This document shows positions 3,510 through 19,461 of a DNA stretch of 64,000 bases, piece by piece; the first letter of the stretch is position 1; every line of letters begins with the position of its first letter. The notes under the pieces are model-generated. The model ran no database searches and was not told the DNA's origin. It was given only the letters and a program-made list of their open reading frames with translations. The DNA is from Propioniferax innocua (GTDB lineage: Bacteria; Actinomycetota; Actinomycetes; Propionibacteriales; Propionibacteriaceae), in contig NZ_VFOR01000002.1 in assembly GCF_006716235.1 (NCBI RefSeq), positions 124,001-188,000 on the forward strand, written 5' to 3'. The position numbers and the translations under genes are program-made.

Positions 3510-4796
3510 ATGTCCGACCAGTTCGACTTCCAACCCGCGCAGCATCCCGGAGCTGCCCAGGAGCAGTCATCCGGCGGCGCGGCCGAGCAGCTCGCTCCTC
3601 CCGAGGGCATGGCCGATCCCTTCTCCTTGGAGGCCCCCGCGGCGCCTGCGCCTGTCACCACCACTCAGGCGCCACGCATGGCACCCCAGGTGAAGGCAGA
3701 ACAGGCCCCCGTGCTGGATGAGAAGGTCGATCAGTTCATGACGGCGTTGACCTCGGCTGAGCCGAAGTCGCCCGAGATGGAGGCACAGGCCACCGCGGTG
3801 CGCAACATGGGCGACGCGGACATCCGCAAGTCCGCCGAGACCTCCAATCGTCTGTTGAACGCCCCCATCAAGGCGATGAACGAAGGTGCGATCTCCGGCA
3901 AATCGAAGGTCGGTCAGACGTTGCTGGACCTGCGTCGCACCGTCGAGGACCTCGATCCCAGCCAGGCCACCGGCACCCGCAAGGTGCTGGGCTTCCTGCC
4001 GTTCGGTGATCGCATCACCGACTACTTCCGTAAGTACCAGTCTGCGCAGTCGCATCTGAACGGCCTGCTGCACAGTCTGCAGAACGGCAAGGATGAACTG
4101 ACCAAGGACAACATCGCGCTCAACATGGAGAAGAAGAACCTCTGGGCGTCGATGGGCCGGTTGAACCAGTACATCTACATCGCCGAACGGCTCGACGCGA
4201 AACTTTCGGCACAGATCCAGGAGCTCGAGATCACCGATCCCGAGAAGGCCGACTCCCTGAGCAAGGACGTCCTGTTCTACGTCCGTCAGAAGCATCAGGA
4301 CCTTCTGACGCAGCTCGCGGTGTCGATCCAGAGCTACCTGGCGATCGACATCATCATCAAGAACAACCTGGAGCTCATCAAGGGCGTCGACCGCGCGTCG
4401 ACCACCACGATCTCGGCCCTGCGCACCGCGATCATCGTCTCGCAGGCCCTGACCAACCAGCAGATGGTGTTGGACCAGATCACGGCGCTGAACACGACCA
4501 CCTCGAAGCTCATCGAGAACACCTCGGTCATGCTCAAGGACAACTCGGCCCGCATCCAGCAGCAGGCCGCCGACGCCACGCTCGGGCTGCCCGAGCTCCA
4601 GAACGCGTTCGCGAACATCTACGAGACGATGGATTCGATCGACACGTTCAAGGAGCAGGCCCTCGACTCGATGGCGCAGACCGTGGGCGTGCTGCAGCAC
4701 GAGGTCGACAAGTCCAAGACCTACCTCGACCGTGTGTCGCAGCAGGACCAGCGCATCGCCGAGGGCGCGCTCGATTTCGAGCAGAACATGCGCTGA
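3510..4796 (+). CDS. telA: TelA/KlaA-family toxic anion resistance protein
   Basis: A 428-residue TelA-family protein, all helical after a Pro/Ala-rich first ~65 residues. Family features include GFLPFGDRITDYFRKYQSAQSHL (core around residue 165), DNIALNMEKKNLW, and the long helical stretch ending VSQALTNQQMVLDQITALN and TSKLIENTSVMLK. TelA proteins were named for tellurite resistance plasmids but are widespread and are predicted to work with XpaC and ATPases in envelope or toxin stress; their biochemistry is not settled. RBS AGGGGGAA sits five bases before ATG 3510. It heads a long block of co-directional genes that includes a PknG-like kinase, a PP2C phosphatase, VWA and FHA proteins, which suggests it is one output of that signalling set. 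Confidence 0.93.
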   Translation: MSDQFDFQPAQHPGAAQEQSSGGAAEQLAPPEGMADPFSLEAPAAPAPVTTTQAPRMAPQVKAEQAPVLDEKVDQFMTALTSAEPKSPEMEAQATAVRNMGDADIRKSAETSNRLLNAPIKAMNEGAISGKSKVGQTLLDLRRTVEDLDPSQATGTRKVLGFLPFGDRITDYFRKYQSAQSHLNGLLHSLQNGKDELTKDNIALNMEKKNLWASMGRLNQYIYIAERLDAKLSAQIQELEITDPEKADSLSKDVLFYVRQKHQDLLTQLAVSIQSYLAIDIIIKNNLELIKGVDRASTTTISALRTAIIVSQALTNQQMVLDQITALNTTTSKLIENTSVMLKDNSARIQQQAADATLGLPELQNAFANIYETMDSIDTFKEQALDSMAQTVGVLQHEVDKSKTYLDRVSQQDQRIAEGALDFEQNMR

Positions 4797-5558: not shown

Positions 5559-7325
5559 ATGTCCGACGCCCGTACCCTCTCCGAGGCCATCGAGCATCTC
5601 TCCACGACGGCACAGGACGTCGGCCTGGACCCAGCGGTCGCCCGCACAGAGGGCTGGCAGTTGGCCGCTGCGGTGGCCGAGAGCAACCGTCAGGCATTCG
5701 TGGAGTGGGCCGGTGTCCAAGGGCTCGAGCCCGACGCCGAATCGTTCATGGTCGCAGCCCAGGCCGGGCGACGCTGGCGCAGTGCCCCGACCCGGCTGTT
5801 GCAGGAGGTGCAGATGTCCCGTCCAACGAGCGCGGCGTCGTATGCCGCGGCGTTGGCCGAGGTCTGCACCAGTGCTGCGGTGCTGGGTGAACCGGGGCCC
5901 CGGTCGATGGGCAATGCCCAGGCAGCAGCTGCTGCGCAGCTCGGCGCCGTCACCGGTCAGGCGACGAGATCGTCCGCCGGTGACGCGGGCGTCGGCAGCC
6001 GGTCACCCGAGCCGCTTCGCTCGCCCGACGCCCCTGCCGCCGGAGAGACCCCCGACGTCGGCGTCCTGCAACGCGTCCTCGATCAATTGCAGGGGAGCAT
6101 CGCGCGGCAGCAACGTGAACTGGCCACGAACCTGAGCCGCTCGCCACTGGACCTCGACCCTGACACCTTCGGGCCCGGCGCGTTCAGCGGACTTCCCGGG
6201 AGCCCCGTGGCTGCCGATCCCACACACCACATGTCCCCGGAGGCACCTCTTCCCGGTGCCGTTCCTTCGCCGTCGGCTGCACCCAGAGCCGATGTCAGGG
6301 CCGACGCCACCCAACACCAGACCGACGCCAAGGCCGCGGAGCAGGCCGAGGAAGAGCCGGAAGAGACGCGCAGTGTCGAGGAACTGCTCGCCGAGCTGGA
6401 CGATCTGACCGGCCTCACCCGTGTGAAGAAGGAGATCCATCAGCAGTCTGCTGTGCTCCGTGTCGAGGGGCTCCGCAAGGATGCGGGACTCAACGTGCCG
6501 ACCGTCACACGACACCTCGTGTTCGTCGGGAACCCCGGTACCGGCAAGACAACGGTCGCCCGGCTCGTGGCCGGGATCTACAAGGCTTTGGGGTTGCTGT
6601 CGAAGGGACAACTCGTCGAGGTGGACCGCTCCGAGCTGGTGGCCGGCTATGTCGGTCAGACCGCGTTGAAGACCGCCAAGGTCGTGGAATCCGCCAAGGG
6701 CGGTGTCCTGTTCATCGACGAGGCCTACAGCCTCTCCGGTGATCAGTACGGCACCGAGGCCATCAACACCCTGGTCAAGGAGATGGAGGATCACCGCGAC
6801 GATCTCGTGGTGATCGTCGCGGGATACCCACAGCCGATGAAGGTCTTCATCGCCGAGAACCCCGGCCTGGCCAGCCGTTTCCGCACCACGATCGAATTCG
6901 ATGACTACACCGACTCTGAACTGGTGGAGATCTTCACCGGCATGGTCGCCCGTGCGGACTACGACGCCTCGGACGAGACCGTCGAGCGGTTCAAGACGGT
7001 TCTCGCGACGCAGCCGCGCGACGAATCCTTCGGCAACGGACGCTTCGTCCGCAACTGCCTCGAAGCCGCGATCGGTGCCCATGCCTGGCGTCTTCGCGAG
7101 GTGACCGACCCGACGCTGGAGGATCTCCGCACCCTTATCCCCGAGGACCTCGACGGCCTGGAGAAGGAAGAGGAGCTCCCTGATCTGTCGCTGTTCCAAC
7201 AACATGTGGGGCTCCCCCTCGAGCCGCCGGAGGAGGATCCGGCCGGTGCAGACAGCGCCGACGACGGCCCCTCCGACGAACCCGCCACCGTTGACATCAC
7301 TCCCCCCGCCGAGGATGGGGCATGA
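5559..7325 (+). CDS. CbxX/CfxQ-type AAA+ ATPase
   Basis: A 588-residue ATPase. Residues 1-270 are alanine-rich and poorly conserved, with an acidic stretch (EQAEEEPEETRSVEELL) just before the catalytic part. The AAA+ domain spans ~275-530: LDDLTGLTRVKKEI, Walker A GNPGTGKTT (about residue 324), the YVGQTALKT pore-loop region, Walker B VLFIDEAYSL (about 383-392), and an arginine-finger region NPGLASRFRTT. This is the CbxX family, which includes rubisco activases, SpoVK and the C-terminal ATPase domain of type VII secretion EccA. There is no EccA-type TPR region. ATP-driven remodelling of a partner protein is likely; the partner is unknown, with TelA or the membrane protein downstream as candidates. 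Its stop overlaps the next start (ATGA), showing translational coupling. Confidence 0.9.
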   Translation: MSDARTLSEAIEHLSTTAQDVGLDPAVARTEGWQLAAAVAESNRQAFVEWAGVQGLEPDAESFMVAAQAGRRWRSAPTRLLQEVQMSRPTSAASYAAALAEVCTSAAVLGEPGPRSMGNAQAAAAAQLGAVTGQATRSSAGDAGVGSRSPEPLRSPDAPAAGETPDVGVLQRVLDQLQGSIARQQRELATNLSRSPLDLDPDTFGPGAFSGLPGSPVAADPTHHMSPEAPLPGAVPSPSAAPRADVRADATQHQTDAKAAEQAEEEPEETRSVEELLAELDDLTGLTRVKKEIHQQSAVLRVEGLRKDAGLNVPTVTRHLVFVGNPGTGKTTVARLVAGIYKALGLLSKGQLVEVDRSELVAGYVGQTALKTAKVVESAKGGVLFIDEAYSLSGDQYGTEAINTLVKEMEDHRDDLVVIVAGYPQPMKVFIAENPGLASRFRTTIEFDDYTDSELVEIFTGMVARADYDASDETVERFKTVLATQPRDESFGNGRFVRNCLEAAIGAHAWRLREVTDPTLEDLRTLIPEDLDGLEKEEELPDLSLFQQHVGLPLEPPEEDPAGADSADDGPSDEPATVDITPPAEDGA

Positions 7326-8677
7326 GCAAGCCTTCCGGTTCCGGGGGTCAGGGCGTTCCGGGGCGGACGACGACCGCTCCAGCACCAGGACAGCAGCAGC
7401 CCGGCGCTCCAGGTCGGCCTGCCGGCACTGTGGCCAAGACATCGGCGTCCGGACCTCCGGCGTCGCAGAAGGGGCAGAAGGGAAAGGGCCGGGGCACGTC
7501 CCGCAAAGAGCGGTCCACCCCCACGAAGCTGCGGATGATCCGTGGAGCAACAGTGGCGGTCATCCTTCTGACATCCCTGCTGACTGCGGTGCTCATGTTC
7601 TCCGGCCGTGGGTCCATGACGCAGGCCGCCGGGCACACCGAGCAGCTGATCCGCATGCATCACATCAAGACACTGCTTCTGCAGGCCGACGCCGACGCGA
7701 CCACGTCATTCCTGACCGGGCAGGAGGCGACCACGTATGTGTCGGCGATCGAGGAGGCGAGCACACTCGTTGTCGAGGCATCCCGTTCCCAGCCCGACGA
7801 TCAGGAGCAGCTGGCACGGCTCAACTCCGCGATCGTCGAATACAACGCGACCGCGAGCCTGGCCACGGCCAACAACCAACAGAACTTCCCTGTGGGAGCG
7901 GCCCACCTCGATGAAGCCGGAACGCAGCTGCGTGAGGAAGCCCTCCCCGTGGTGGACTCACTCATCACCACCAATACCCACGCGGTCGAACAACAGACAC
8001 GAATGGTCCCGGCAGGAGTGGTCCTCCTGGTGCTACTCGTGCCGTTGGGGTTCGCCATCTATCTGATGATCTGGGTGGCGCGGCGTTTCAAGCGCGTGGT
8101 CAATGTCGGCATCGTGGGTGCCACGGTGGCGGTGGCGGCCTCGACCGTGGTGGCGACGATGGCCACCAGTACCACCGTGGCGGAGGTGCGGAGTGTCACC
8201 GACGACGATCTCGCTGCGGCCGTGACGATCGCAGATGCCCGTTCGAACGCCTACAACGCGCAGGTTTACCAGAACCTCAGCCTCATCTCGCAGGAGCGGT
8301 CCGCCGAGTTCAACGCAGCCTGGCAGAACGCTGCTGTCTCGGTGACACAGTCACTTCGTGACGCAGGGGAACAGGATCTGGTGGATCTGTGGCATGTGAA
8401 CGAGACCAACCACCGCAAGATCCGTTCGCTCGACGCCGACGGTGATGTGGACGGTGCCAAGAAACTGGCAACCAGTCAGGAGGTGGGTGCGGCCTTCGCC
8501 GACTTCTCCGATTCTGCCGACGAACGTCTCGGTACCAATGCCAGGGCCAGTACCGCTGCCTTCAACGACTCCGGTCCTCGGCTCGTGGCGGCCGGCGTCA
8601 CCGTCAGCGTCCTCGGCCCGTTGGCCGCAGGGTTGATGATCTGGGGAGTCGGTGTGCGTCTGCGGGAGTACCAGTGA
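7322..8677 (+). CDS. four-TM sensor-like membrane protein, GlnX-like
   Basis: A 451-residue membrane protein with a disordered cytoplasmic lead (1-70, rich in Gly, Pro and Lys). The body is built of two similar halves: TM1 (~74-94), an extracytoplasmic helical domain (~95-228), TM2 (~230-252), TM3 (~263-282), a second helical domain (~283-420) and TM4 (~424-445). The helical domains resemble ligand-sensing four-helix bundles. In mycobacteria GlnX, encoded with GlnH and PknG, has this kind of architecture and relays amino-acid levels to PknG. The PknG-like kinase three genes downstream supports the same role here, although no GlnH-type binding protein is present. Assignment rests on architecture and context. 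Confidence 0.7.
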   Translation: MSKPSGSGGQGVPGRTTTAPAPGQQQPGAPGRPAGTVAKTSASGPPASQKGQKGKGRGTSRKERSTPTKLRMIRGATVAVILLTSLLTAVLMFSGRGSMTQAAGHTEQLIRMHHIKTLLLQADADATTSFLTGQEATTYVSAIEEASTLVVEASRSQPDDQEQLARLNSAIVEYNATASLATANNQQNFPVGAAHLDEAGTQLREEALPVVDSLITTNTHAVEQQTRMVPAGVVLLVLLVPLGFAIYLMIWVARRFKRVVNVGIVGATVAVAASTVVATMATSTTVAEVRSVTDDDLAAAVTIADARSNAYNAQVYQNLSLISQERSAEFNAAWQNAAVSVTQSLRDAGEQDLVDLWHVNETNHRKIRSLDADGDVDGAKKLATSQEVGAAFADFSDSADERLGTNARASTAAFNDSGPRLVAAGVTVSVLGPLAAGLMIWGVGVRLREYQ

Positions 8678-8883
8678 TGGTGTCCGGTCCGTTCGCGCTC
8701 GCCCACAGCATCGTCGATGGACGTCCCGGGCTCGCAGGCCCGGCTGCACAGGAACTCTCCCCCGGCACGGGCGTTCCTTCGGCGTATGCGGTATCGGTGC
8801 GCGATGATCGTGCCGACCGATGGGTGAACTCACTGGACGCCGATGTCAGCTTCGTCATCCCCGTGTATGGAAGGACTTCATGA
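8677..8883 (+). CDS. small hypothetical protein in the coupled kinase operon
   Basis: A 68-residue reading frame that starts within the stop of the sensor gene (TGATG, ATG at 8677) and ends within the start of the next gene (ATGA at 8880-8883). Such double coupling argues that it is translated. The protein begins MVSGPFALAHSIVDG, has no TM helix, no cysteine motif and no domain I recognise. It occupies the place where glnH lies between glnX and pknG in some actinobacteria, but at 68 residues with no lipobox it is not a binding protein; it might be a remnant or a small subunit. Confidence 0.55.
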   Translation: MVSGPFALAHSIVDGRPGLAGPAAQELSPGTGVPSAYAVSVRDDRADRWVNSLDADVSFVIPVYGRTS

Positions 8884-10025
8884 GCATCACTGCCCCCGAC
8901 GCCCCGGGACGGCTCGGTGTTCCACTGGATCCAGCGCAGGCCGGTCGTTACATCAGTGACCTGCAGGCGTGGATCGATGCACGCCGTTCCGAGCTGGACC
9001 AGATCGACCAGGTGGTGATGGCCAGCCCCGACCGGGATCAGCTCACCGGCGACGTGGCGTTGTGCCTGACTCTGTGGAAATCGGTCTCGGATCGCCATGA
9101 CCTGTTGGCGGCCACCTGGGATTCAGGTCGGGTGGGTCCGGTGGAGCGTGAGCGGTTGTCCTCGTTGATCTGGGGGCGGCTCGAAACAGGCGACCCCAAG
9201 GCCAGTGCGCTGGCGGTCTCCCTGCCCGAGGCATCACGGCTGTGTGACGCGATGGTCGCCCAGCTGCGCACCCGCGTCAGCTTCGATGTGAACGCACATC
9301 AATACGCGGGACGCATGCATGATCTGCGGGCGCAGATGTCACGCCTTCAGGACCAGGTCGCCCTCGAACCCCCGGCCCTGCGCGCCGAGCCCGCGGCGAA
9401 ACTCGCCGACCTCCAGCAGCGGGTCGACGCCATGACTGACCGCATGGCTCAAGGCGGTGACATCGGAGGTCTCATCGGCCCGGTGGAGATCGAGGCGGCA
9501 ACCTTCGAGCGCGATCTCATCGTCGGCGGGGTCCAGCGGCGTCGCGCGCGTGGTCTGATCGATCAGACCCGAGAGAAGCTCGATGACCTCATCGAGCGGG
9601 AGGAGGCCATGCGCAAGCTCGTCAAACGCTGTCTCGCCACGGTCTCGCCCTCCCCCAAGTACGCCGTTCCCGATGTGGATGTGTTGGGCCCGATGCCCAA
9701 CACTCCCGATCGGGTCAAGGAGTTCTCCGAACGGCTCGACAAGGTCTCACGCGCCATGCAGGTGGTCCAGGAGGCCTACACCGAGGCGCTGCACGAACAT
9801 GACCTGCTCACAGCCCGAGCCGAGCAGTTGCGGGATCGGGCCCGAACGCTGGGGCTGACCGAGAATCGGGATGTGGCAGGTGTGAGCGCCATCTGCCACG
9901 ACGTTCTTTCCCGACGCCCCTGCCCCATGCCGCTGGCGCGTCATCTGGTCGCAACCTACGAGGCAGCACTCGAATGGGCGCTCACCCAGCAGCGGACGCC
10001 CACCAGAGAGGGTGAGCCCACATGA
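8880..10025 (+). CDS. helical/coiled-coil protein of the kinase operon
   Basis: A 381-residue soluble protein predicted almost wholly helical, with heptad-like stretches such as HDLRAQMSRLQDQVAL, KLADLQQRVDAMTDRMAQ and ARGLIDQTREKLDDLIEREEAMRKLVKRCL. No catalytic motif, signal peptide or TM segment. The sequence SPSPKYAVPDVDVLGPMPNTP in the second half is a Pro-rich break between two helical parts. Start and stop both overlap neighbours (ATGA), so it is made together with the sensor protein and the kinase. An adaptor that joins membrane sensor and kinase would fit, but that is a guess. I do not recognise a family. Confidence 0.75.
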   Translation: MSITAPDAPGRLGVPLDPAQAGRYISDLQAWIDARRSELDQIDQVVMASPDRDQLTGDVALCLTLWKSVSDRHDLLAATWDSGRVGPVERERLSSLIWGRLETGDPKASALAVSLPEASRLCDAMVAQLRTRVSFDVNAHQYAGRMHDLRAQMSRLQDQVALEPPALRAEPAAKLADLQQRVDAMTDRMAQGGDIGGLIGPVEIEAATFERDLIVGGVQRRRARGLIDQTREKLDDLIEREEAMRKLVKRCLATVSPSPKYAVPDVDVLGPMPNTPDRVKEFSERLDKVSRAMQVVQEAYTEALHEHDLLTARAEQLRDRARTLGLTENRDVAGVSAICHDVLSRRPCPMPLARHLVATYEAALEWALTQQRTPTREGEPT

Positions 10026-12532
10026 GGTGCACCCAGCCCGGATGCACGGGCGACATCGTCGATGGTTACTGCATGATCTGCGGCATGCCGCCCAGCATGG
10101 GCGCTTCGGCGTCCCAGCAGGCTGCACCGCAGACGAGTGTGCCGCAGACCAACGCGTCCCCGTCTCCCAAACCCAACTCCCCGTCCTCCAACTCCCCGTC
10201 CTCCGGTTCCCGGGCTCAGCAGGTTTCCGGGTCGGCCTCATCGCAATCGGCCGCACCGGCCGGCCCCGCCTCCGGCCGGATGTCGACCACGACGCCATCA
10301 CCCTCCAGCCAGCAGGGTCCGTCACCGCGACCGGGACCGACGCCGACCAAGGTCAAGGGTCGGTGCACGATGCCCGGCTGCGGCGGCGAGATCCGTGACG
10401 GCTACTGCGACATCTGCGGCTCGCCCCCGGGCACCGCGCCAAGCCCTGTCGAGGATGATGCCGGCCTGTCCTCGGTGACCAAGGCATCCAGCCACATCGC
10501 ATCGACGGCGCTGGGATCGTCGATCGTCGGCACCGAATCCACGCGGCGCATCCGTGAAGCCTCTCGAGAGCGATCGGCACGTATCGGTGCCGGGTTGACA
10601 CGCGTTCCCCCGGCTCCTGCGGTGGACCCGGAGAAGGCCATGATGACCGATCCCGTCGTGCCCGAGCGCAAAAGGTTCTGCCCCAGCTGCGGCGCCAAGG
10701 TGGGACGCTCACGCGAGGGGCGGCGCGGGCGTACCACGGGGTTCTGCGCCTCGTGCCGCAACCCCTTCTCCTTCGACCCGCAGCTGAAGGCCGGCGACAT
10801 CGTCGGCAATCAATACGAGGTGGCCGGTTGCCTCGCCCATGGCGGTCTGGGCTGGATCTACCTGGCCCGTGACAAGAACGTCTCCGACCGTTGGGTCGTG
10901 CTCAAAGGACTGCTCAATTCCGGCGACGCCGACGCCCTTGCCTCCGCGATCGCCGAGCAGCAGTTCCTCGCCCAGGTGGAACACCCGTTGATCGTCGAGA
11001 TCTACAACTTCGTCACCCACGAGGGTGCTGGCTACATCGTCATGGAGTACGTAGGTGGCCGTTCCCTGAAGGACCTGCTCAAGGACCGTCGGGCGAAGAA
11101 CAACGGGATCTACGATCCGCTTCCGGTCGATCAGGCGATCGCCTACATCGTCGAGGTCCTTCCCGCGTTCCAGTACCTGCACGAGAAGGGTCTGATCTAC
11201 TGCGATTTCAAGCCCGACAACATCATCCAGATGGGCGATTCGATCAAGCTCATCGATCTGGGTGGTGTGCGTCGACTCGATGACGAGGATTCAGCCATCT
11301 ACGGAACTGTCGGCTATCAGGCGCCCGAGATCGCGCGCCTGGGGCCCTCGGTGCAGTCCGACATCTTCACGATCGGACGCACGCTGATGGTGCTGTGCTC
11401 GGAGTTCCGTGGCTACCAGTCGACATACGAGTTCTCCCTGCCGCCGGTGGAGGAGACCCCGCTGTTCCAGGAGAACGACTCGCTGTATCGGCTCCTGTTG
11501 AAATGTTGTGCGCCGAACCCGGCCGATCGTTTCGCGTCCGCCGATGAGCTACAGACACAGTTGATGGGTGTGCTGCGTGAGACGGTGGCGCGCCGCACCC
11601 CGGGCACCGCGTTGACGTCAGCCCCCTCGGAGTTGTTCGAGGCCCCGGTGATCGTGAACGATTCGGTGGACTGGCACCAACTCCCCAGGTTGCGTCCCAA
11701 CACCTCCGATCCCCAGCATTCGTGGTTGTCGAACATCGACATCGATGATCCGGCCAACAAGCTCTCGGTATTGGACGGTGCTCCGGAGGACACCGAGGAG
11801 GTGTGGATCGCCCGCTGCGCCGCCGCCCTCGAACTCGGCGATCACCGACGTCTGGATCAGCTGACGCGCTCACTGCTGCATCTCAACCCGTGGGAGTGGC
11901 GGGCGGTGTGGATGCAGGGTCTGGGCGCCATGGCCCAGCATCGTTGGCATGACGCCATGGCCGCGTTCAACGCGGTGTACGGGCAGGTGCCCGGCGAACT
12001 GGCCCCCAAGCTCGCTCTCGCGGTCGCCTGCGAGAACGCCGGGGAGCCCGAGGTCGCCGAGGGGCTGTATCTCGCCTGCGTCTCGACCGACGCCAATTAC
12101 GTGACGATCTCGGCGTTCGGGCTGGCTCGTATCCGGGAGGCTCGTGGAGACCTGAAGAAGGCGGTCTCGGCTCTCGACATGGTGCCGACGACCAGCCGCG
12201 CCTATGCCGAGGCCCGACGCAGTCGCTCGCGTCACCTCATCGAACTCGGTGAGGGCTTGGAAGGACTGAGCAAGGCGATGGAGTCGATGCAGGGCGTACG
12301 CATGGCACCCGGTGAACGTGAACATTTCGAGGTGACCGTTCTGGAGCAGGCTCTCGCCGAAGTGCTCCACCACGGCCCACAGAAGATCGAGATCAGTGGC
12401 TACCCTGCCGAGGAGAAGCAACTGCGTATCGGTCTTGAGAAGGCCTACCGCCGCCTCGCACGTCACGAGGAGGAGCGCCGGGTCGAGCTCATCGACGAGG
12501 CCAACCAGATCCGACGCTGGAGTCTGCTGTGA
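10022..12532 (+). CDS. pknG: PknG-like serine/threonine protein kinase with zinc ribbons and TPR region
   Basis: An 836-residue kinase. Two near-identical zinc ribbons open the protein: Cys 3, 8, 17, 20 and Cys 115, 120, 129, 132 (pattern CxxPGCxGxIxDGYCxICG), joined by Ser/Pro-rich linkers. A rubredoxin-like site follows (Cys 220, 223, 242, 245), then the kinase domain (~264-520): glycine loop AHGGLGWIYLA, Lys ~293, catalytic loop YCDFKPDN (Asp 395) and LIDLGGVRR (Asp 412). As in mycobacterial PknG the usual HRD arginine is missing and DFG is DLG. The C-terminal ~240 residues are TPR-like. Mycobacterial PknG phosphorylates the FHA protein GarA to control glutamate metabolism. PknG is normally ~750 residues; the extra length is the ribbon region. 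Next gene is the matching phosphatase, overlapping by four bases. Confidence 0.92.
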   Translation: MRCTQPGCTGDIVDGYCMICGMPPSMGASASQQAAPQTSVPQTNASPSPKPNSPSSNSPSSGSRAQQVSGSASSQSAAPAGPASGRMSTTTPSPSSQQGPSPRPGPTPTKVKGRCTMPGCGGEIRDGYCDICGSPPGTAPSPVEDDAGLSSVTKASSHIASTALGSSIVGTESTRRIREASRERSARIGAGLTRVPPAPAVDPEKAMMTDPVVPERKRFCPSCGAKVGRSREGRRGRTTGFCASCRNPFSFDPQLKAGDIVGNQYEVAGCLAHGGLGWIYLARDKNVSDRWVVLKGLLNSGDADALASAIAEQQFLAQVEHPLIVEIYNFVTHEGAGYIVMEYVGGRSLKDLLKDRRAKNNGIYDPLPVDQAIAYIVEVLPAFQYLHEKGLIYCDFKPDNIIQMGDSIKLIDLGGVRRLDDEDSAIYGTVGYQAPEIARLGPSVQSDIFTIGRTLMVLCSEFRGYQSTYEFSLPPVEETPLFQENDSLYRLLLKCCAPNPADRFASADELQTQLMGVLRETVARRTPGTALTSAPSELFEAPVIVNDSVDWHQLPRLRPNTSDPQHSWLSNIDIDDPANKLSVLDGAPEDTEEVWIARCAAALELGDHRRLDQLTRSLLHLNPWEWRAVWMQGLGAMAQHRWHDAMAAFNAVYGQVPGELAPKLALAVACENAGEPEVAEGLYLACVSTDANYVTISAFGLARIREARGDLKKAVSALDMVPTTSRAYAEARRSRSRHLIELGEGLEGLSKAMESMQGVRMAPGEREHFEVTVLEQALAEVLHHGPQKIEISGYPAEEKQLRIGLEKAYRRLARHEEERRVELIDEANQIRRWSLL

Positions 12533-13821
12533 ACATGCCCGAGGGAGTTGGATCGTCCGGTTTCACCGAAGCCGTTCCGTGCATCAGTTGTGGGGTTCTG
12601 CCGATCCCCCAGAACGCCTGGTGCCCAGAATGTGGAGCCCTGCTGCCGACGCAGCTCCCCGAGGGACACCGACCACCGGGGGCGTCCTCGGTCACCACTG
12701 CTCTCCCCCCGAGCAACACCGATGGATCCGACGAAACCGTTCACCGGCTGGAGACGATCTGCCCGTCCTGTCAGGGCATCATCGAGACTGGATACTGCCT
12801 GCGTTGCGGCGCCGCCGAAGGTCCCCTGCGTGACCATTTCCAACAGGTTCCCGCCGTCTGGCTGGCCGGTGTGAGCGATCGTGGGATCCGGCATCATCGC
12901 AACGAGGACGCTCTGGCGCTGGCCGCCGACCCCGTGCCATGCTCGTACGGCGTCATGGTGGTCTGTGACGGCGTCTCATCCTCCGAGGCGTCGGACATCG
13001 CGTCGATGGCTGCGGCACGGGCGGCACGTGACCTGCTCGACGAAAGGCGTCGCAGCGCCTCGTCACGCCGTGCCCCCTCCTCGAGCATGCTGCTCCAGCA
13101 GGCGGTCGAGTCCGCCAACGACGCCGTCATCCGTGCGACCGGAGACTCCGAGACATCGCACACCGACGACGGCGCCGCCGCACAGATTCCGCCGACGAGC
13201 GGTGCGGCCGCCTGTACGTTCGTCGCGGCCCTGATCGATCAGGATGCTGTGACCGTCGCCAACATCGGTGACTCTCGTGCCTACTGGATCGGTGATGACG
13301 CCGATGCCCGGTTGTTGACGGTGGACGATTCGATGGCGCAGGTGCGCATGGCGATGGGCGTCGACCGCGAGACCGCTGAAAGCGAACCACAGGCCCATGC
13401 GATCACCCGTTGGCTGGGGGCCGATGCACCCGATCTCATGCTCACCCCACGTTCTTTCCAGGTACCCGGCGACGGCTGGCTGATCCTGTGCAGTGACGGA
13501 CTGTGGAACTACGCCTCCGCTCCTGAGCATCTGCTGACGCTGGTGCAGGAGGCCGCTCTCGCCGGCATCCATGAGCCGCGTGATCTGGCTGCGCATCTGA
13601 CGCGATGGGCCTGCGTACAGGGCGGACACGACAACATCACCGTCGCTGCAGCACGATTCGGGCCACGCCAGGATGTGTCGGCCATCATGCCGGGATCTGC
13701 TGCCCGCGATGCGGTGCCCCCCCCTGCTTCGGGCACGATGAACGCTCCGGTCACGGCCCTCTCCGATGACGCCACAGACCCTCTTCACGTCAAGGACCCC
13801 GCTGCACGTCAAGGAGACTGA
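12529..13821 (+). CDS. PP2C-family Ser/Thr protein phosphatase with N-terminal zinc ribbons
   Basis: About 430 residues. The N-terminus has two zinc ribbons (Cys 18, 21, 32, 35 and Cys 78, 81, 90, 93); the second ends GYCLRCG, matching those of the kinase. The PP2C domain (~112-385) has all metal-binding elements: DRGIRHHRNEDALAL, VVCDGVSSSE (Asp 147), NIGDSRAYWI, LCSDGLW and GGHDNIT. It would remove phosphate from Ser/Thr in the cytoplasm, most likely opposing the kinase encoded just before it. A GTG at 12529 overlaps the kinase stop; ATG 12535 is an alternative start two codons later. A disordered Pro/Ala tail ends the protein. Compared with PstP of mycobacteria it lacks a TM helix. Confidence 0.92.
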   Translation: MNMPEGVGSSGFTEAVPCISCGVLPIPQNAWCPECGALLPTQLPEGHRPPGASSVTTALPPSNTDGSDETVHRLETICPSCQGIIETGYCLRCGAAEGPLRDHFQQVPAVWLAGVSDRGIRHHRNEDALALAADPVPCSYGVMVVCDGVSSSEASDIASMAAARAARDLLDERRRSASSRRAPSSSMLLQQAVESANDAVIRATGDSETSHTDDGAAAQIPPTSGAAACTFVAALIDQDAVTVANIGDSRAYWIGDDADARLLTVDDSMAQVRMAMGVDRETAESEPQAHAITRWLGADAPDLMLTPRSFQVPGDGWLILCSDGLWNYASAPEHLLTLVQEAALAGIHEPRDLAAHLTRWACVQGGHDNITVAAARFGPRQDVSAIMPGSAARDAVPPPASGTMNAPVTALSDDATDPLHVKDPAARQGD

Positions 13822-13986: not shown

Positions 13987-15267
13987 ATGGCGGATTTCAC
14001 CTCCGCGGTCTACCAGAACGAGTTCCTGCCCGACGGCGGCACCGATGTGAGCGCCATCGTCACCGTCGAGTGCGCCAATGCCGGAACCGCGGGCCAGACG
14101 GGAAGTGGATCGGCAGGCGAGATCATCATCGTCGACACCTCGGGCTCCATGGGCGTCACGAACATGGAGGCGGCCAAGAATGCAGCCATCGCGGCATTGG
14201 ACCACATCGTCGACGGCACGTGGTTCGCCGTCGTGGCCGGCAATCATCAGGCCTTCCTCGCCTACCCGATGAGCCGCGGGGGTCAGGGCATGGTCCGCAT
14301 GGATTCCTCGACGCGCTATCAGGCTGCCCGCGCCATCGGGACATTCCGTGCCGACGGTGGTACCGCGATCGGTTCGTGGCTCAATCTCACCCGAGCCCTG
14401 TTCAACTCGATCCCGGGGCTTCAGCAGAAACACGCCATCTTGCTGACCGACGGCGAGAACCACAACGAGACGCCTCAGCAGCTCGACATGGCGATCCAGT
14501 CGTCGATCGGTCAGTTCCAGGCCGATTGCCGAGGGATCGGCGTCGATTGGAAGGTCTCGGAGATCCGCAAGGTCGCCCAGGCTCTGCTCGGCTCGGTCGA
14601 CATCATCCCTCACCCCTCCCAGCTCGGCCCGGTGTTCGCCAACCTGATGCAGAAGTCGATGGCACGCGGTGTGGCCGAGGCCAATCTGAAGGTGTGGGCG
14701 CCGCAGGGCTCTCAGGTCCTGTTCGTGCGTCAGGTCTCCCCCGAGGTTGAAGATCTCACCCACCGGGGTACGGCGGTGAACCCTCTGACGCAGTCGTTCC
14801 CCACCGGCGCGTGGGGGGATGAATCACGTGACTATCACGTGGCGGTCCGGTTGGCTGCCCGCGCCGTGGGCCAGGAGCAGTTGGCCGCTCGCGTACAGCT
14901 CGAGGTCGGCGGTCAGGTGGTGACGCAGGGGTTGGTGAAGGCCAAGTGGTCCGGTGATACCTCCCTGACCGCACGCATCAATCCCGCCGTCGCCCACTAC
15001 ACCGGGCAGACCGAACTCGCCACCGCCATCCAGGAGGGTCTGGCTGCCCGTGCTGCGGGCGATGAACGAACGGCCACGACTCGTCTGGGACGTGCCGTGC
15101 AGCTGGCAGCTGAGACCGGGAACGACGGTGCGACATCGCGTCTGCGCAAGGTCGTCGATGTCCAGGACGAGGCCACCGGCACCGTCCGGTTGAAGCGGTC
15201 AGTGGACAAGGCCGATGAGATGGCATTGGACACCGCGTCCACCAAAACCACACGGGTGAGGGGCTGA
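13987..15267 (+). CDS. VWA-domain protein
   Basis: A 426-residue protein with an N-terminal von Willebrand factor A domain. The MIDAS metal site is complete: DTSGSMG (Asp 50), the conserved Thr in ADGGTAIGSWL and the Asp in LLTDGENHNETP. No signal peptide or TM helix, so it is cytoplasmic. The middle third has a beta-rich VWA-linked region, and the C-terminal third is helical and Ala/Arg-rich (RAAGDERTATTRLGRAVQLAAETG resembles TPR-like VWA partners). VWA proteins often act with AAA+ ATPases as chaperone or docking units, and an AAA+ ATPase is encoded upstream. AAGGAG lies five bases before ATG 13987. The FHA gene begins one base after its stop. Confidence 0.9.
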   Translation: MADFTSAVYQNEFLPDGGTDVSAIVTVECANAGTAGQTGSGSAGEIIIVDTSGSMGVTNMEAAKNAAIAALDHIVDGTWFAVVAGNHQAFLAYPMSRGGQGMVRMDSSTRYQAARAIGTFRADGGTAIGSWLNLTRALFNSIPGLQQKHAILLTDGENHNETPQQLDMAIQSSIGQFQADCRGIGVDWKVSEIRKVAQALLGSVDIIPHPSQLGPVFANLMQKSMARGVAEANLKVWAPQGSQVLFVRQVSPEVEDLTHRGTAVNPLTQSFPTGAWGDESRDYHVAVRLAARAVGQEQLAARVQLEVGGQVVTQGLVKAKWSGDTSLTARINPAVAHYTGQTELATAIQEGLAARAAGDERTATTRLGRAVQLAAETGNDGATSRLRKVVDVQDEATGTVRLKRSVDKADEMALDTASTKTTRVRG

Positions 15268-15268
15268 G

Positions 15269-16291
15269 ATGGCACGTTGCGCCGACGGACACGAGAGCCG
15301 TTCCACCGACTACTGCGACACCTGCGGTGCGGTCATCACCGATCCCGGGGCACCGTCCCCGGCATCGCGTGCCGCTGGCCCCGATCAGGCCGCGGGGGAG
15401 CCGGCCACACCGACCGGAATCACCTGCCCGAACTGCGATGCGATCAATCTGCCGGATTCGCTCTTCTGCGAAGCGTGTGGCTACGACTTCACCACCGGCA
15501 GCATGCCACGCGTCGCCGACACCAGCTCCTGGCTCGACCTCGATGCTCCCGCCGCGAGTGCACCCGGTGGCGTCGGGCCATCACCCAACCGGGATGAGTC
15601 GGCTTCGGCCGCTGCGAACCAGCCCGCTGCGGAGAAGCCGAGTGCTCCCGTACCGTCACCGTCGTTGGACCTCGAGCCCGAGCCCGACCCTGCTGCCGGT
15701 CCGGTCCCCCGCACCGCGACGCCCCGTCCAACGACGGCCCGTCCATCAACACCGCAGTCGGCAGGGTCGCAGTCCCCCGAAGCCACGCGCAATGCTCCTC
15801 TCATGCCCGAAACACCGCGACCCGAAGCACGGAGGCCTGAAGCTGGCATGACGACGAACGATCCGATCGACTGGGTGGCCGAGTTGTGGATCGACCCCGA
15901 GTGGTACGCCGTTCAGGAGAGCCCGGACCCCATTCCGTCCCCCGGGCTGCCCGACATCGTTCCGCTGCGCGGCGACTCGGTCCTGATCGGCCGTACCTCG
16001 CACAGCCGAGGGATCTTCCCCGATATCGAAGGTGGCGCCGACACCGGTGTCAGTCGGCGTCAGGCGAAACTGACCACCGATGGGAAGCGTTGGTTCGTCG
16101 AGGATCTCGATTCCTCCAATGGCACCTTCGTCGGCCCTGCTGCCGGAAAACTTCCGGAGGATCCGCTGACGCCGGGGCGTCGCCATGAGCTCGAGCCGAG
16201 TGACCGCATCTACGTGGGTGCGTGGACGCGGATTGTTCTGCGACGTGCCACGGCGGAGGAAGCCCGGGCCGCAGCCGGCCGCATGGACTGA
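15269..16291 (+). CDS. FHA-domain protein with N-terminal zinc ribbons
   Basis: A 340-residue protein. Zinc-ligand sets at Cys 4, His 8, Cys 16, Cys 19 and Cys 53, 56, 67, 70 (the last ends FCEACG) are followed by a ~150-residue Pro/Ala/Glu linker and a C-terminal FHA domain (~225-325) with the phosphothreonine-binding residues VLIGR, GVSRRQ and SSNGTFV. FHA domains bind phosphothreonine peptides, so it should recognise targets of the kinase encoded in the same block. The mycobacterial counterpart GarA has an N-terminal ETT phosphorylation motif; none is visible here, so the mode of switching may differ. The shared ribbon type suggests it docks on the same scaffold as the kinase and phosphatase. 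Confidence 0.92.
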   Translation: MARCADGHESRSTDYCDTCGAVITDPGAPSPASRAAGPDQAAGEPATPTGITCPNCDAINLPDSLFCEACGYDFTTGSMPRVADTSSWLDLDAPAASAPGGVGPSPNRDESASAAANQPAAEKPSAPVPSPSLDLEPEPDPAAGPVPRTATPRPTTARPSTPQSAGSQSPEATRNAPLMPETPRPEARRPEAGMTTNDPIDWVAELWIDPEWYAVQESPDPIPSPGLPDIVPLRGDSVLIGRTSHSRGIFPDIEGGADTGVSRRQAKLTTDGKRWFVEDLDSSNGTFVGPAAGKLPEDPLTPGRRHELEPSDRIYVGAWTRIVLRRATAEEARAAAGRMD

Positions 16292-16326
16292 AACCCGCAG
16301 CTGATCCATCCGTGGAGAAAGTGAAC

Positions 16327-17466
16327 GTGGACAAGGCAGACAGGGAGAAGTCGGCCGGGGATGCGGCTCCCCCGGCCCGCTTGGGCCGTGACCTGCGCGG
16401 GCACACCGACGCACTGGCAGCGTTGGTGGAGCATCGGAACCTGGTGGAGTTCACCGAAGGCCACTGGATCCTCGCCGAGGCCGTGGACGGCCGGATCTAC
16501 AACTACCGTCCCGAGGAGTTCCTCCCGCAGGAACATCGCTGGCGGGTGATGTCCCGCATCACGGCACCGATGGTCGCCGCGACGCTGCTGGCCGCCGTCG
16601 CCCTCGGCGGAGCCTCCGGCGAGGACGCTGTTCAGGCGACCCTGGTGCTGCTCATCGGAGGTGCCCTCGGGCTGGGTTTCTGCGCCCTGCAGTACACAGC
16701 GACCCAGAAGGTGCGCGCCAAACGTGCCCGGACGGGCATCCCCGCGGGACGCAAGCCGCTGCCGGTTCCACCCGAGACATCGGCCGAGCGTCATCGGCGT
16801 CACCAGAGCGATCACATCGAGGAGACACCTGTGATCGACGACGCGACGACCGGCCCCGGCGAGAAGCGTTCCGGGACTCGTCCGGACCAGGAGTGGATCG
16901 TCCGAGACAGCCCCGGCGCGGAGCCGACGAACGAGGAGCTGGCGAACCGTGAATGGCCACTGCTCCCCTCCGCTTCGGAGGAGGACGAGCCCGAACAGTC
17001 CTGGTGGGAGCGTCATCAGGGTTGGGAGAAGTACCGGCGGCAGCATGAACTCGGTCACGACGATCTGAACAGTGCGGTCGCCGAGAATCGGCGTCTCACC
17101 GCCAGCTCCGACCACCGATGGATCCTCGCACGAGATTCCGCCCAACGCTGGTACAACTACCGACCCGAGGAATACCGGTGGGCCGAAGGGTGGTCGAGGC
17201 GCGGTTTCGCGATCTCTCTCGGTGCCGGTCTGATGACCTTGTTGACCGTCACGGGCGTGATGGGACTGATCAGTTCTCCTTCCACGGAGACGGCCATCGC
17301 GACGGCAGTCGTCGGCCTGCTCACGACCGGGTTCTGGGTCCCGATCGGCATCCAGATCCGGGCCGGACGCGCGCGGGCCAAGCGCGGTGTCCCTCCGCCC
17401 CGCAGTGCGGCGTACCCGGTCGCTGCGGACCCGACCGATGAGGATCGCCGGAATCATCGTTCCTGA
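16327..17466 (+). CDS. duplicated-repeat membrane protein with YNYRPEE motifs, copy A
   Basis: A 379-residue protein made of two homologous halves. Each half has a helical segment with a Trp-Ile-Leu core (GHWILAEAVDGR; HRWILARDSAQR), then a YNYRPEE motif (residues 58-64 and 276-282), then two TM helices (~80-95 and ~104-122; ~293-312 and ~323-345) and a short basic, Pro-rich exit (GIPAGRKPLPVPPE; GVPPPRSAAYPVAA). The halves are joined by an acidic linker containing EPTNEELANREWPLLP. I know no family name. GTG 16327 is chosen because GGAGAAA lies six bases upstream; earlier in-frame starts lack an RBS. A paralogue with the same plan follows at 17791. Likely a membrane anchor of the TelA/kinase block, by position only. 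Confidence 0.8.
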   Translation: MDKADREKSAGDAAPPARLGRDLRGHTDALAALVEHRNLVEFTEGHWILAEAVDGRIYNYRPEEFLPQEHRWRVMSRITAPMVAATLLAAVALGGASGEDAVQATLVLLIGGALGLGFCALQYTATQKVRAKRARTGIPAGRKPLPVPPETSAERHRRHQSDHIEETPVIDDATTGPGEKRSGTRPDQEWIVRDSPGAEPTNEELANREWPLLPSASEEDEPEQSWWERHQGWEKYRRQHELGHDDLNSAVAENRRLTASSDHRWILARDSAQRWYNYRPEEYRWAEGWSRRGFAISLGAGLMTLLTVTGVMGLISSPSTETAIATAVVGLLTTGFWVPIGIQIRAGRARAKRGVPPPRSAAYPVAADPTDEDRRNHRS

Positions 17467-17498
17467 CGCTGCGCACCGGCGGGTCAGCATGTCCCACG

Positions 17499-17510
17499 GG
17501 TATCGTGGGC
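17499..17510 (+). promoter_or_regulatory. candidate -10 region before the DUF3107 gene
   Basis: GGTATCGTGGGC, whose TATCGT fits TANNNT, lies 46 bases before the GTG start of the DUF3107 gene. The identical 12-mer occurs at 18899-18910 before the next promoterless gap, which supports a shared promoter element rather than chance. Confidence 0.4.
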
Positions 17511-17555
17511 ACGCATTCGCGCCAGAACACCACACACGAACCACAAGGAGTACCC

Positions 17556-17777
17556 GTGGACGTCAAGATCGGAATCCAGCACATCACCCGCGAACTGATC
17601 GTGGACACCGACCAGAGCGCCGACGAGGTCGCGACGGCCTACCAGGAGGCAGTCGCCAACGGCGGCACCTTCGAACTGGTCGACACCAAGGGCGGACGCA
17701 CCATCGTGCGCGCCGAATCGGTGGCCTACCTCGACCTCGGCAGTGAGAAGGCGCGCAAGGTCGGCTTCGGTCTGTGA
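17556..17777 (+). CDS. DUF3107 protein (Rv3208A/TB9.4-like)
   Basis: A 73-residue conserved actinobacterial protein: VDVKIGI at the start, EVATAYQEAV in the middle and the invariant-looking end VAYLDLGSEKARKVGFGL. It matches the DUF3107 family, whose mycobacterial member lies between the TetR gene Rv3208 and the RhlE gene Rv3211. The function is unknown. GTG 17556 is the start because AAGGAG sits five bases upstream and the family begins there. Here it has been separated from TetR by about 14 kb and is framed by two paralogous membrane genes. Confidence 0.9.
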   Translation: MDVKIGIQHITRELIVDTDQSADEVATAYQEAVANGGTFELVDTKGGRTIVRAESVAYLDLGSEKARKVGFGL

Positions 17778-17790
17778 GTCTCCGCCTCGG

Positions 17791-18882
17791 ATGAGCACCG
17801 AGCGGAAAGCCGTTGGCCACGCGCAGCTTCGCGACGCCATCTTCGAGTACCGCACGCTGTGCGAGGAAGAGCCGGACGCGGGCTGGAAGCTGTCGGCCGG
17901 CATCGACCGCCGTTACCGGAATTACCGGCGATCGGAGTTCGTCCGGAACGAGAGCACGAGTTGGCCTCTCCTGTGGGGCGTGCTGGGAATCGCGGCCCTG
18001 CTGACGGTGGTCCTTCCCTGGCTGGATGGCACCGAACTGGTGACAGTCATGTGCTTGGGCGCGCTCTCGCTGAATGCGGCTGGCGCGCTGATCGTGTGCC
18101 GGAAGAAACGTCGTACCCGAATATTTGCAGGGCTGGCGGCGCCCCGAGGCATGCCCATCACCGTCCCGCCGGAGAGCCTCGACGAACGGGCGGAGCGTCT
18201 GTCGCTCCCGCTCGAAGATCCTCCCGACACCACGAATGCTCCGTCGGCGCCCGCCGCGGCGGGCGTCGAACCGACGAACGAGGAGCTCCTCGACCGCGAG
18301 TGGCCGCTGCTCCCCATCGAGTCCACGCCGGACTCCGCGGAGCCCGGTGTGGAACGAGCCGAATCCGAGCCCGAGACGGAGTCGTTCTGGGAACGTCAGA
18401 CCGGTTACCGGAAGTTCCAGCAGATCCGCGAGAATGGTCACAAATCACTGCTCGAAGCCGTGCAGGAGAATCACCGGCTCAATGCCACCTCCGACCACGC
18501 CTGGACGCTGTCACGCGGCGGCGGGGAAGGACTTTGGTACAACTACATGCCGCAGGAGATGGGGTATGGCCCTGACCTCCGGGGATGTTTGTGGTTCGTG
18601 GGGATCCTCACAACCCTTCTGGCGCTGGGATCGATCCTCGCCATCCCGGTGGTGCTCTTCCAGGGACCTCTGATCAATCTGCTCTTCTGCCTCGGTGGAG
18701 TTCTGCCGTCCCTGCTCTGGGCGGTGCTCTTCCGGCCGGAGTGGCGTGCCATGCGTGCCCGGAACCGACGCCACGTGCCCGCTCCGACGGGCCGGCCATA
18801 CCGGCTTCAGTACCAACCACCCCCCGCCACACCGGCCACGATGACCGGTGCCGAAGACGGGATCGGCTCTTCCGCGCCGTGA
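17791..18882 (+). CDS. duplicated-repeat membrane protein with YNY motifs, copy B
   Basis: A 363-residue paralogue of the protein at 16327-17466. It has the same order: a first half with RYRNYRRSEF (41-50, a worn form of the motif), two TM helices (~57-78 and ~83-103), basic Pro-rich exit, the linker EPTNEELLDREWPLLP (nearly the same as in copy A), then a second half with LWYNYMPQE (248-256) and two TM helices (~264-290 and ~296-315). The second half keeps the closest match (RLNATSDHAWTLSR versus RLTASSDHRWILAR). Starts 13 bases after the DUF3107 stop, ATG 17791, with no clear RBS. Unknown function; the pair arose by gene duplication after an internal duplication. Confidence 0.8.
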   Translation: MSTERKAVGHAQLRDAIFEYRTLCEEEPDAGWKLSAGIDRRYRNYRRSEFVRNESTSWPLLWGVLGIAALLTVVLPWLDGTELVTVMCLGALSLNAAGALIVCRKKRRTRIFAGLAAPRGMPITVPPESLDERAERLSLPLEDPPDTTNAPSAPAAAGVEPTNEELLDREWPLLPIESTPDSAEPGVERAESEPETESFWERQTGYRKFQQIRENGHKSLLEAVQENHRLNATSDHAWTLSRGGGEGLWYNYMPQEMGYGPDLRGCLWFVGILTTLLALGSILAIPVVLFQGPLINLLFCLGGVLPSLLWAVLFRPEWRAMRARNRRHVPAPTGRPYRLQYQPPPATPATMTGAEDGIGSSAP

Positions 18883-18898
18883 CCGGGTGACGAACATC

Positions 18899-18910
18899 GG
18901 TATCGTGGGC
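18899..18910 (+). promoter_or_regulatory. candidate -10 region, second copy of the 12-mer
   Basis: GGTATCGTGGGC again, 95 bases before the glutaredoxin-like gene. TGAC sequences lie 15-20 bases upstream and could serve as a -35. See the matching element at 17499. Confidence 0.4.
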
Positions 18911-19005
18911 GGGCCGCTGCTGCACGACGCAGCCCGAGAACATCGAGGAGTCTTCGTGGACGTCACACCAGGCATGGGCCCGGCGTCGACCGTGAGCCGT
19001 ACCCC

Positions 19006-19461
19006 ATGAGGCCCCTGCGTCGGTGGACACCGGCCCTGTTCTGGGCCGTGCTGTTGATCGGGCTCGGCGCCCTGCTGGTGTGGCGCGGCGCCGAGGAATC
19101 CCTCTGGGCCCCTGCCATGTTGCTCCCGATGGTGTGGTTGGCGTCGCCACTGGCCTTTCCGCGCATCACCTCCCACGCCGAAGCGGCTGAACGGGCCGAG
19201 GCCGAACCCGGCACGGTGCGGATCTTCGTCCGGCCCGGATCGTTGTTCTGCATCTGGCTGCGTTGGAAGCTCCATGGCCTCGCCCGGGAGGTGCTGTGGA
19301 TCGATGTGTGGGCCGATGATGAGGCCGCGGTGAAGATCCGCGAGCTCGGACGCGGCGAGTTGCTCGTACCGGTCGTCATCGTCGATGACGTGACGCGTCA
19401 CAACCCTCCGGCCGACTGGGTCGCCCACCACGTGACCCCGCCCAAAGGCAGCGGCAGGTAG
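19006..19461 (+). CDS. membrane-anchored glutaredoxin-like protein with altered active site
   Basis: A 151-residue protein: two hydrophobic helices (residues ~8-26 and ~33-51) followed by a thioredoxin-fold domain of the glutaredoxin/mycoredoxin type (~70-148) with VRIFVRPGSLFCIWLRWKL, WIDVWADDEAAVKIREL, LLVPVVIVDD and the typical cis-Pro before VVIV. Related actinobacterial proteins carry CPYC or CxxC at the position that reads SLFC here, so only Cys 82, the usual resolving cysteine, is left. It could therefore act as a monothiol protein or have lost redox activity. It lies between the block described above and rhlE, on the same strand. Confidence 0.72.
   Translation: MRPLRRWTPALFWAVLLIGLGALLVWRGAEESLWAPAMLLPMVWLASPLAFPRITSHAEAAERAEAEPGTVRIFVRPGSLFCIWLRWKLHGLAREVLWIDVWADDEAAVKIRELGRGELLVPVVIVDDVTRHNPPADWVAHHVTPPKGSGR

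Follow-up and report, generated by a model that had tools for sequence, protein, structure and literature searches.

Two paralogous, internally duplicated membrane proteins around a DUF3107 gene in Propioniferax innocua, probably restricted to their lineage

Introduction

Two described systems come closest to the locus analyzed here, which consists of two genes, A and B, on either side of a DUF3107 gene in Propioniferax innocua (assembly GCF_006716235.1). The genes lie within a stretch of 64,000 nucleotides of contig NZ_VFOR01000002.1 (positions 124,001 to 188,000 of the forward strand), hereafter called the window. In the GlnX-PknG-FHA (GarA/OdhI) system of glutamate control, PknG recruits FHA substrates via phosphothreonines, as described in passages of PMC8546545, and GarA acts as an inhibitor of the large glutamate dehydrogenase, as described in passages of PMC8175468. 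Passages of PMC6509490 add that, in an archaeon, binding between FHA and VWA proteins can depend on phosphorylation. The second system is that of PspM, which is presented in part of PMC11237479 as a protein with two transmembrane (TM) helices from the clgR-pspA operon. DUF3107 itself is listed as a "possible ATP-binding protein" in a section of one review (PMC4255298), and the function of the Mycobacterium tuberculosis DUF3107 protein Rv3208A is given as unknown in a section of PMC5108770.

The locus resembles the glutamate-control system in that components of the latter are encoded upstream on the same strand, with a NAD-glutamate dehydrogenase downstream. It differs in A and B, which are no part of the published system as set out in the passages cited, and which relatives lack at the corresponding locus. 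PspM/Rv2743c (PF25587, NF047839) shares with A and B a tight two-TM hairpin followed by a basic, proline-rich stretch, and is likewise actinobacterial. Unlike A and B, however, it shows no helix-beta-hairpin unit before the TM helices and no tandem duplication, and after its hairpin it continues into a long, helical C-terminal domain with no counterpart in A and B.

Results

Genes A and B are paralogues, each with two copies of one unit

The initial annotation had described two paralogous, internally duplicated membrane proteins split by the DUF3107 gene. This description was confirmed, coordinates included, both by blastp and by shuffle tests of half against half (Table 1). Proteins A and B aligned with 34% identity across 370 columns (E = 7e-39). 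The start codon of gene A is GTG at 16327, with an alternative possible start at 16321. In the codon alignment of the two genes (323 aligned codons), first, second and third positions agreed in 175, 186 and 119 cases, respectively, and the same codon was used in just 52 of the 115 shared degenerate residues. Judged from this alignment, A and B show the pattern of copies that are old and code for protein. Both genes fall inside the range spanned by their conserved neighbours in codon usage and GC content, and the composition test gave no sign of a foreign origin for either of them. The terminator scan yielded two terminators, as compared to 2.0 expected, and the promoter scan none.

The repeated unit spans approximately 130–155 residues and follows the pattern GH..L..A..E...L......W.L.......YNYrpEE, continued by a pair of hydrophobic helices joined by a short turn and by a basic, proline-rich tail. 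Twelve columns are invariant across the four copies. The two halves of A aligned with a score of 125, which was reached by none of 500 full and none of 500 local-composition shuffles. For the halves of B the score was 57, also reached by none of 500 shuffles of either kind; since the best local shuffle scored 56, the duplication in B is recognizable mainly via A. Comparison across the genes gave a score for A unit 1 against B unit 2 that was reached by 1 of 500 local shuffles, and for A unit 2 against B unit 1 by none. The similarity was retained when the TM helices were excluded and only the soluble parts were compared (0 of 1000 shuffles for A and 3 of 1000 for B). Thus, four copies of one unnamed domain surround the DUF3107 gene, as had been proposed. 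Corresponding units of the two genes are more similar to each other (46/128 identical residues for the first units and 53/143 for the second) than are the two units within a gene (42/136 in A and 32/127 in B), so that duplication of the unit came before that of the gene.

Two details of the earlier description hold for some of the copies. The heptapeptide YNYRPEE is exact in both halves of A, that is in two of the four copies, whereas B carries YRNYRRSE and YNYMPQE. Similarly, each half has the two predicted TM helices ascribed to it, but the tryptophan-rich helix (WWER or FWER) precedes the second halves only.

The two proteins share a nearly identical linker

The near identity of the linker EPTNEELxxREWPLLP was borne out: 14 of its 16 residues are identical in A and B, which makes it the best 16-column run of the alignment. 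As many identities were reached by 125 of 20,000 permutations of the identity columns. At the DNA level, 39 of 48 bases agree, including 10 of the 16 third codon positions. With third positions diverged and the protein sequence retained, the linker appears to have been conserved as protein rather than recently copied. It contains a single invariant threonine.

Table 1. Positions of the features discussed in the text, numbered from the first base of the window.
Feature	Position	Strand	Remarks
TelA (Pfam)	3510-4796	+	more than 11 kb upstream of A
AAA ATPase	5559-7325	+	
GlnX-like protein	7322-8677	+	203.9 bits, NCBIfam cut-off 250
401-residue protein	8820-10025	+	no TelA match
PknG	10022-12532	+	
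PP2C	12529-13821	+	
VWA	13987-15267	+	
FHA	15269-16291	+	
Gene A	16327-17466	+	379 residues, two tandem units, four predicted TM helices
A unit 1	16387-16797	+	helix, beta-hairpin, TM hairpin, basic/proline tail; by alignment
Exact YNYRPEE, A unit 1	16498-16518	+	from sequence
TM helices, A unit 1	16558-16614, 16627-16683	+	by hydropathy
A linker EPTNEELANREWPLLP	16921-16968	+	from sequence and alignment
A unit 2	16996-17463	+	tryptophan-rich helix SWWERHQGWEK in front; modelled (see text)
Exact YNYRPEE, A unit 2	17152-17172	+	from sequence
TM helices, A unit 2	17206-17262, 17296-17352	+	by hydropathy
DUF3107 leader, copy 1	17499-17565	+	upstream 12-mer, ribosome-binding site, first codons
DUF3107 gene	17556-17777	+	73 residues; PF11305, E = 2.3e-24
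Gene B	17791-18882	+	ATG start, 363 residues, paralogue of A
B unit 1	17797-18200	+	divergent motif YRNYRRSE at 17914-17937
TM helices, B unit 1	17968-18024, 18040-18096	+	by hydropathy
B linker EPTNEELLDREWPLLP	18268-18315	+	from sequence and alignment
B unit 2	18370-18830	+	YNYMPQE at 18538-18558; SFWERQTGYRK in front
TM helices, B unit 2	18604-18660, 18670-18726	+	by hydropathy
DUF3107 leader, copy 2	18899-18965	+	includes GTGGACGTCA; read as putative duplication scar
Remnant frame, GTG to TGA	18956-19009	+	17 codons; overlaps the ATG of the next gene (ATGA, 19006-19009)
Glutaredoxin/mycoredoxin-like gene	19006-19461		TIGR02200, below cut-off

No credible relatives found outside the source genome

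Protein A as a query matched only its own genome among 147 genomes of the family, and a profile of full-length A and B matched only that genome among 198. A profile search with the half-domain gave no credible relative outside the source genome either, and in that genome the unit profile recovered exactly the four copies described above. The unit profile also produced weak matches in 26 of the 147 family genomes (E values of 0.001–0.05, the best being 0.00102). At the level of the class, 6 of 394 genomes matched at E ≤ 0.001; the best of these matches (8.3e-5) contained an internal stop, and five of the six began at profile position 54 or later. In the phylum, the A/B profile matched 1 of 396 genomes besides its own, with 18.5 bits and over columns 303-370 only. 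These weak family, class and phylum matches look like TM background.

Scans with short peptide patterns detected nothing among the 84,980 genomes of the GTDB collection (two scans with two patterns each) or in viral contigs (one scan), and neither did a tblastn search with A among plasmids and phages (B was not searched there); records very near the source genome may be absent from these collections. The source genus is represented by one genome. Pfam, NCBIfam, PADLOC and PHROGs contained no family that matched A or B above its cut-off, and no half fell into a curated family above its cut-off either. The only family with an E value below 0.01 was PspM/Rv2743c, which is considered in the Discussion; the other Pfam entries listed for A were DUF7269 (E = 0.03) and 8xMP (E = 0.42). 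Among the sequences of the PDB, the best E value was 0.16. The suggestion of an undescribed family therefore stands in so far as the proteins fall outside the curated families, but A and B are the sole members found. The searches strongly support a restriction of A and B to their lineage, the pair having been seen only in this bacterium within everything searched.

Predicted structure and topology

Structure prediction of a single half with AlphaFold2, using the four-row alignment of the units, gave a folded model for the second half of A (mean predicted local distance difference test score, pLDDT, of 74.6). Two helices, a beta-hairpin whose strands carry W.L and YNY, and a further two helices, both long, make up the model. 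Residues 21-60, which form the helix-hairpin part, were predicted with pLDDT values of 85–91, expressed as means of 10-residue blocks. A Foldseek search with the model returned no significant match, the best E values being 1.9 in the PDB and 0.62 among viral models. In an alignment with VIA-align against 178 chains, the top Z score was 6.4 over 81 residues, with a root mean square deviation of 6.3; several rows were tied, it was mostly the long helices that were aligned, and no fold is excluded by this comparison.

Basic residues are dense after the second TM helix of each hairpin, and are mixed or weaker before the first. According to the positive-inside rule, basic flanks of TM helices mark the cytosolic side. 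The charge pattern thus suggests that the units, the linker and the tails of both proteins would lie on the cytosolic side of the membrane, with only the short turns of the hairpins exposed outside.

A copy of the DUF3107 leader follows gene B

We report here a copy of the DUF3107 leader downstream of gene B. The two leaders were identical at 45 of 67 bases without a gap, as compared to 34 of 67 for the next best 67-mer on either strand of the window. The match takes in a 12-mer that is the same in both copies, the ribosome-binding site AGGAGT and, with the start codon, the first ten coding bases of DUF3107, GTGGACGTCA. The 12-mer, GGTATCGTGGGC, occurs exactly twice in the window. With soft local scoring the match reached 23, a value attained by none of 1000 shuffles (maximum 17), and its score under stricter scoring was reached by none of 752 other pieces of the window. 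A candidate remnant of the tail of DUF3107 after B was rejected, its score being reached by 203 of 1000 shuffles.

The arrangement suggests that a unit of A and DUF3107 was probably duplicated in tandem, and that the body of the second DUF3107 gene was lost. The stop of the 17-codon remnant frame overlaps the start (ATG) of the glutaredoxin-like gene, so that coupling may now allow this gene to use the inherited ribosome-binding site.

The surrounding block is conserved in relatives without A and B

We mapped the region in 33 distinct relatives, a non-random set of which 20 were obtained from DUF3107 matches and 13 from VWA matches. The stretches were 9–18 kb long, so that missing distant genes count for little, and the layout was based on tblastn; gene calling had missed DUF3107 in 13 of 20 loci. 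DUF3107 was present in 30 of the 33 relatives and was accompanied by the helicase in 29, by an FHA gene on the same strand in 18 and by PknG in 14, while PknG was found in 17 loci altogether. The order PknG-PP2C-VWA-FHA-DUF3107-DEAD occurs in relatives that contain neither A nor B, and none of the 33 loci had a match to A or B at E ≤ 0.01. Relatives that retain FHA, DUF3107 and the DEAD-box gene but not A and B support the view that the pair is lineage-restricted.

Where FHA and DUF3107 shared a strand (18 relatives), the two matches were separated by 32–407 bases in 12 cases and by more than 600 bases in 6. All six long gaps were occupied by other genes, different in each relative: a rhodanese-like protein (L151), an MFS transporter (L152), an FAD oxidoreductase (L153), VKOR with a thioredoxin-like protein (L154), a glutathione peroxidase (L160) and, identified by eye, an ABC transporter set with a further enzyme (L079). 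On these layouts, the junction between FHA and DUF3107 is a permissive, insertion-tolerant site inside a conserved block, and the closeness of A to the kinase genes is for that reason poor evidence of a joint function. The proposal that A and B are part of a TelA/kinase block thus came out weakly: they share its strand, with a gap of 35 bases between FHA and A, but relatives keep the block without them. No conserved co-occurrence of A or B with pknG was seen in the relative loci, and TelA is more than 11 kb away from A.

Downstream of B, the glutaredoxin-like gene encodes a protein with an N-terminal hydrophobic segment, in which a single cysteine replaces the CxxC motif (FCIWLR); its equivalent in L153 lacks even the single cysteine. 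Further downstream are a DEAD-box helicase and, on the opposite strand, a PHP protein and the large NAD-glutamate dehydrogenase. The PknG, GlnX-like and FHA block and this dehydrogenase fall within 25 kb (3510-26942). DUF3107 and the glutamate dehydrogenase occurred together in 12 of the 33 relative loci, a co-location that would fit a regulator and its target as neighbours.

Discussion

Taken together, we propose that A and B are lineage-restricted repeat proteins that were duplicated together with DUF3107 and that act as membrane scaffolds facing the cytosol. We put this forward tentatively, being almost evenly divided about the proposal as a whole. In this history, one unit of approximately 130–155 residues was first duplicated inside an ancestral gene, and the resulting two-unit gene was then most likely duplicated together with the DUF3107 gene that follows it. 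Of the second DUF3107 gene, only the leader and the first codons would remain, in front of the glutaredoxin-like gene. As to their function, A and B may act jointly, probably as a hetero-oligomer, in the form of a membrane-bound cytosolic scaffold whose helix-hairpin units and linker would dock a soluble partner. The candidate partners most worth testing would be the FHA protein and PknG encoded upstream. If so, the locus presents an orphan membrane protein that has grown by two rounds of duplication and has left a readable scar, in which the leader and start codon of a neighbour have outlived their own gene and now precede another.

Several observations weigh against this proposal. The structural model is tentative, as it was built on four paralogous sequences from one genome, and the full-length model of A and B was poor (pLDDT of 47.7). 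The charge before the first TM helix is mixed, and in B unit 2 nearly neutral. With stricter scoring, the leader match was reached by 2 of 1000 shuffles, and the distal DUF3107 left no detectable trace after B (203 of 1000 shuffles, as given above). The adjacency to PknG and FHA is weak, given the other genes found at this junction in 6 of 18 relatives, and the function of A and B is one that we only infer.

The match between the leaders could in principle also be a shared regulatory element, that is a common promoter and leader under one regulator rather than what is left of a lost DUF3107 gene. The 12-mer GGTATCGTGGGC is identical in both leaders, each of which precedes a gene on the same strand, and it could presumably contain an actinobacterial -10 element. 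However, the match runs without a gap through the ribosome-binding site and into the first ten coding bases of DUF3107, and TATCGTG was found in none of 45 distinct stretches upstream of DUF3107 in relatives, so that we consider a shared element unlikely. A different view of the pair is that A and B are orphans without a tie to PknG, FHA or DUF3107, which landed at a permissive junction and have a lineage-specific role in the envelope. This is quite possible, although we lean against it. It would account for the relatives in which the block lacks A and B, for the other genes that occupy the junction in a third (6/18) of the same-strand relatives, and for the failure to find homologues elsewhere in the genome, pattern and profile searches made. 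It accords less well with the tight, same-strand spacing, A beginning 35 bases after FHA and B 13 bases after DUF3107, with a codon usage like that of the kinase block, and with the strongly conserved linker, which points to a specific partner. A bolder version of the scaffold proposal makes A and B a new membrane adaptor on the PknG-FHA circuit: PknG would phosphorylate the threonine of EPTNEEL, the FHA protein would bind the phosphorylated linker, and FHA-controlled enzymes, such as the NAD-glutamate dehydrogenase, would be retained at the membrane or set free from it. The idea was suggested by the proximity of FHA and by the one invariant threonine of the linker, and we regard it as very improbable. 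Were the linker to bind the FHA protein, a conserved actinobacterial phospho-signalling circuit would gain a lineage-specific membrane arm; if it does not, A and B would be an ordinary orphan pair.

We also considered whether A and B are divergent members of PspM/Rv2743c, a family of membrane proteins that partner PspA in the phage-shock system of mycobacteria. PF25587 was the top Pfam match of A (E = 3.1e-5, 24.2 bits), matched three of the four halves and was the only family listed for them; none of five shuffled copies of A hit it. The PspM model NF047839 gave E values of 1.4e-4 for A and 2.5e-4 for B, and the tails after the hairpins have a similar basic, proline-rich look in A, B and PspM. 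Yet these matches stay below the cut-offs of 27.7 bits for PF25587 (B scoring 12.2 bits, E = 0.15) and 80 bits for NF047839 (21.9 for A and 21.1 for B), and the best Pfam stretch of A is mainly the TM hairpin and ends at position 107 of 237 in the profile. Independent PspM profiles did not confirm the relationship. A profile of 48 PspM-like sequences gave 11.6 bits for A and 10.6 for B, above the reversed sequences (6.3 and 4.8), but reached by 154 and 93 of 1000 local shuffles, respectively. With a profile of 22 high-scoring PspM proteins, A obtained -4.0 bits (reached by 881 of 1000 shuffles) and B 1.3 (205 of 1000); without composition correction, the score of A rose to 9.4 bits (31 of 1000), whereas that of B was reached by 315 of 1000. 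The hhalign score of 30.0 was just above 200 column-shuffled controls (maximum 29.6), as was the probability of 23% (at most 21% in the controls), but the match comprised 15 columns outside the hairpin and not the region aligned by Pfam. In 296 genomes of the class, PF25587 had 26 other matches below its cut-off, with 19.6–26.2 bits and 7 with an internal stop; of these 26, two or more (G357 C48 and G349 among them) are genuine PspM-like proteins. Neither A nor B showed the C-terminal domain of PspM, and their neighbours at this locus are FHA, DUF3107 and the glutaredoxin-like gene rather than pspA or clgR. Membership in PspM was therefore rejected after these controls, and we consider it most improbable.

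The same survey bears on the distribution of PspM itself. PF25587 exceeded its cut-off in 58 of the 296 class genomes, which belong to several families (loci L141-L148 and L170-L186, for example). The protein is stated for mycobacteria and corynebacteria in part of PMC11237479, and PspM-like proteins may be more widely spread than the range given there.

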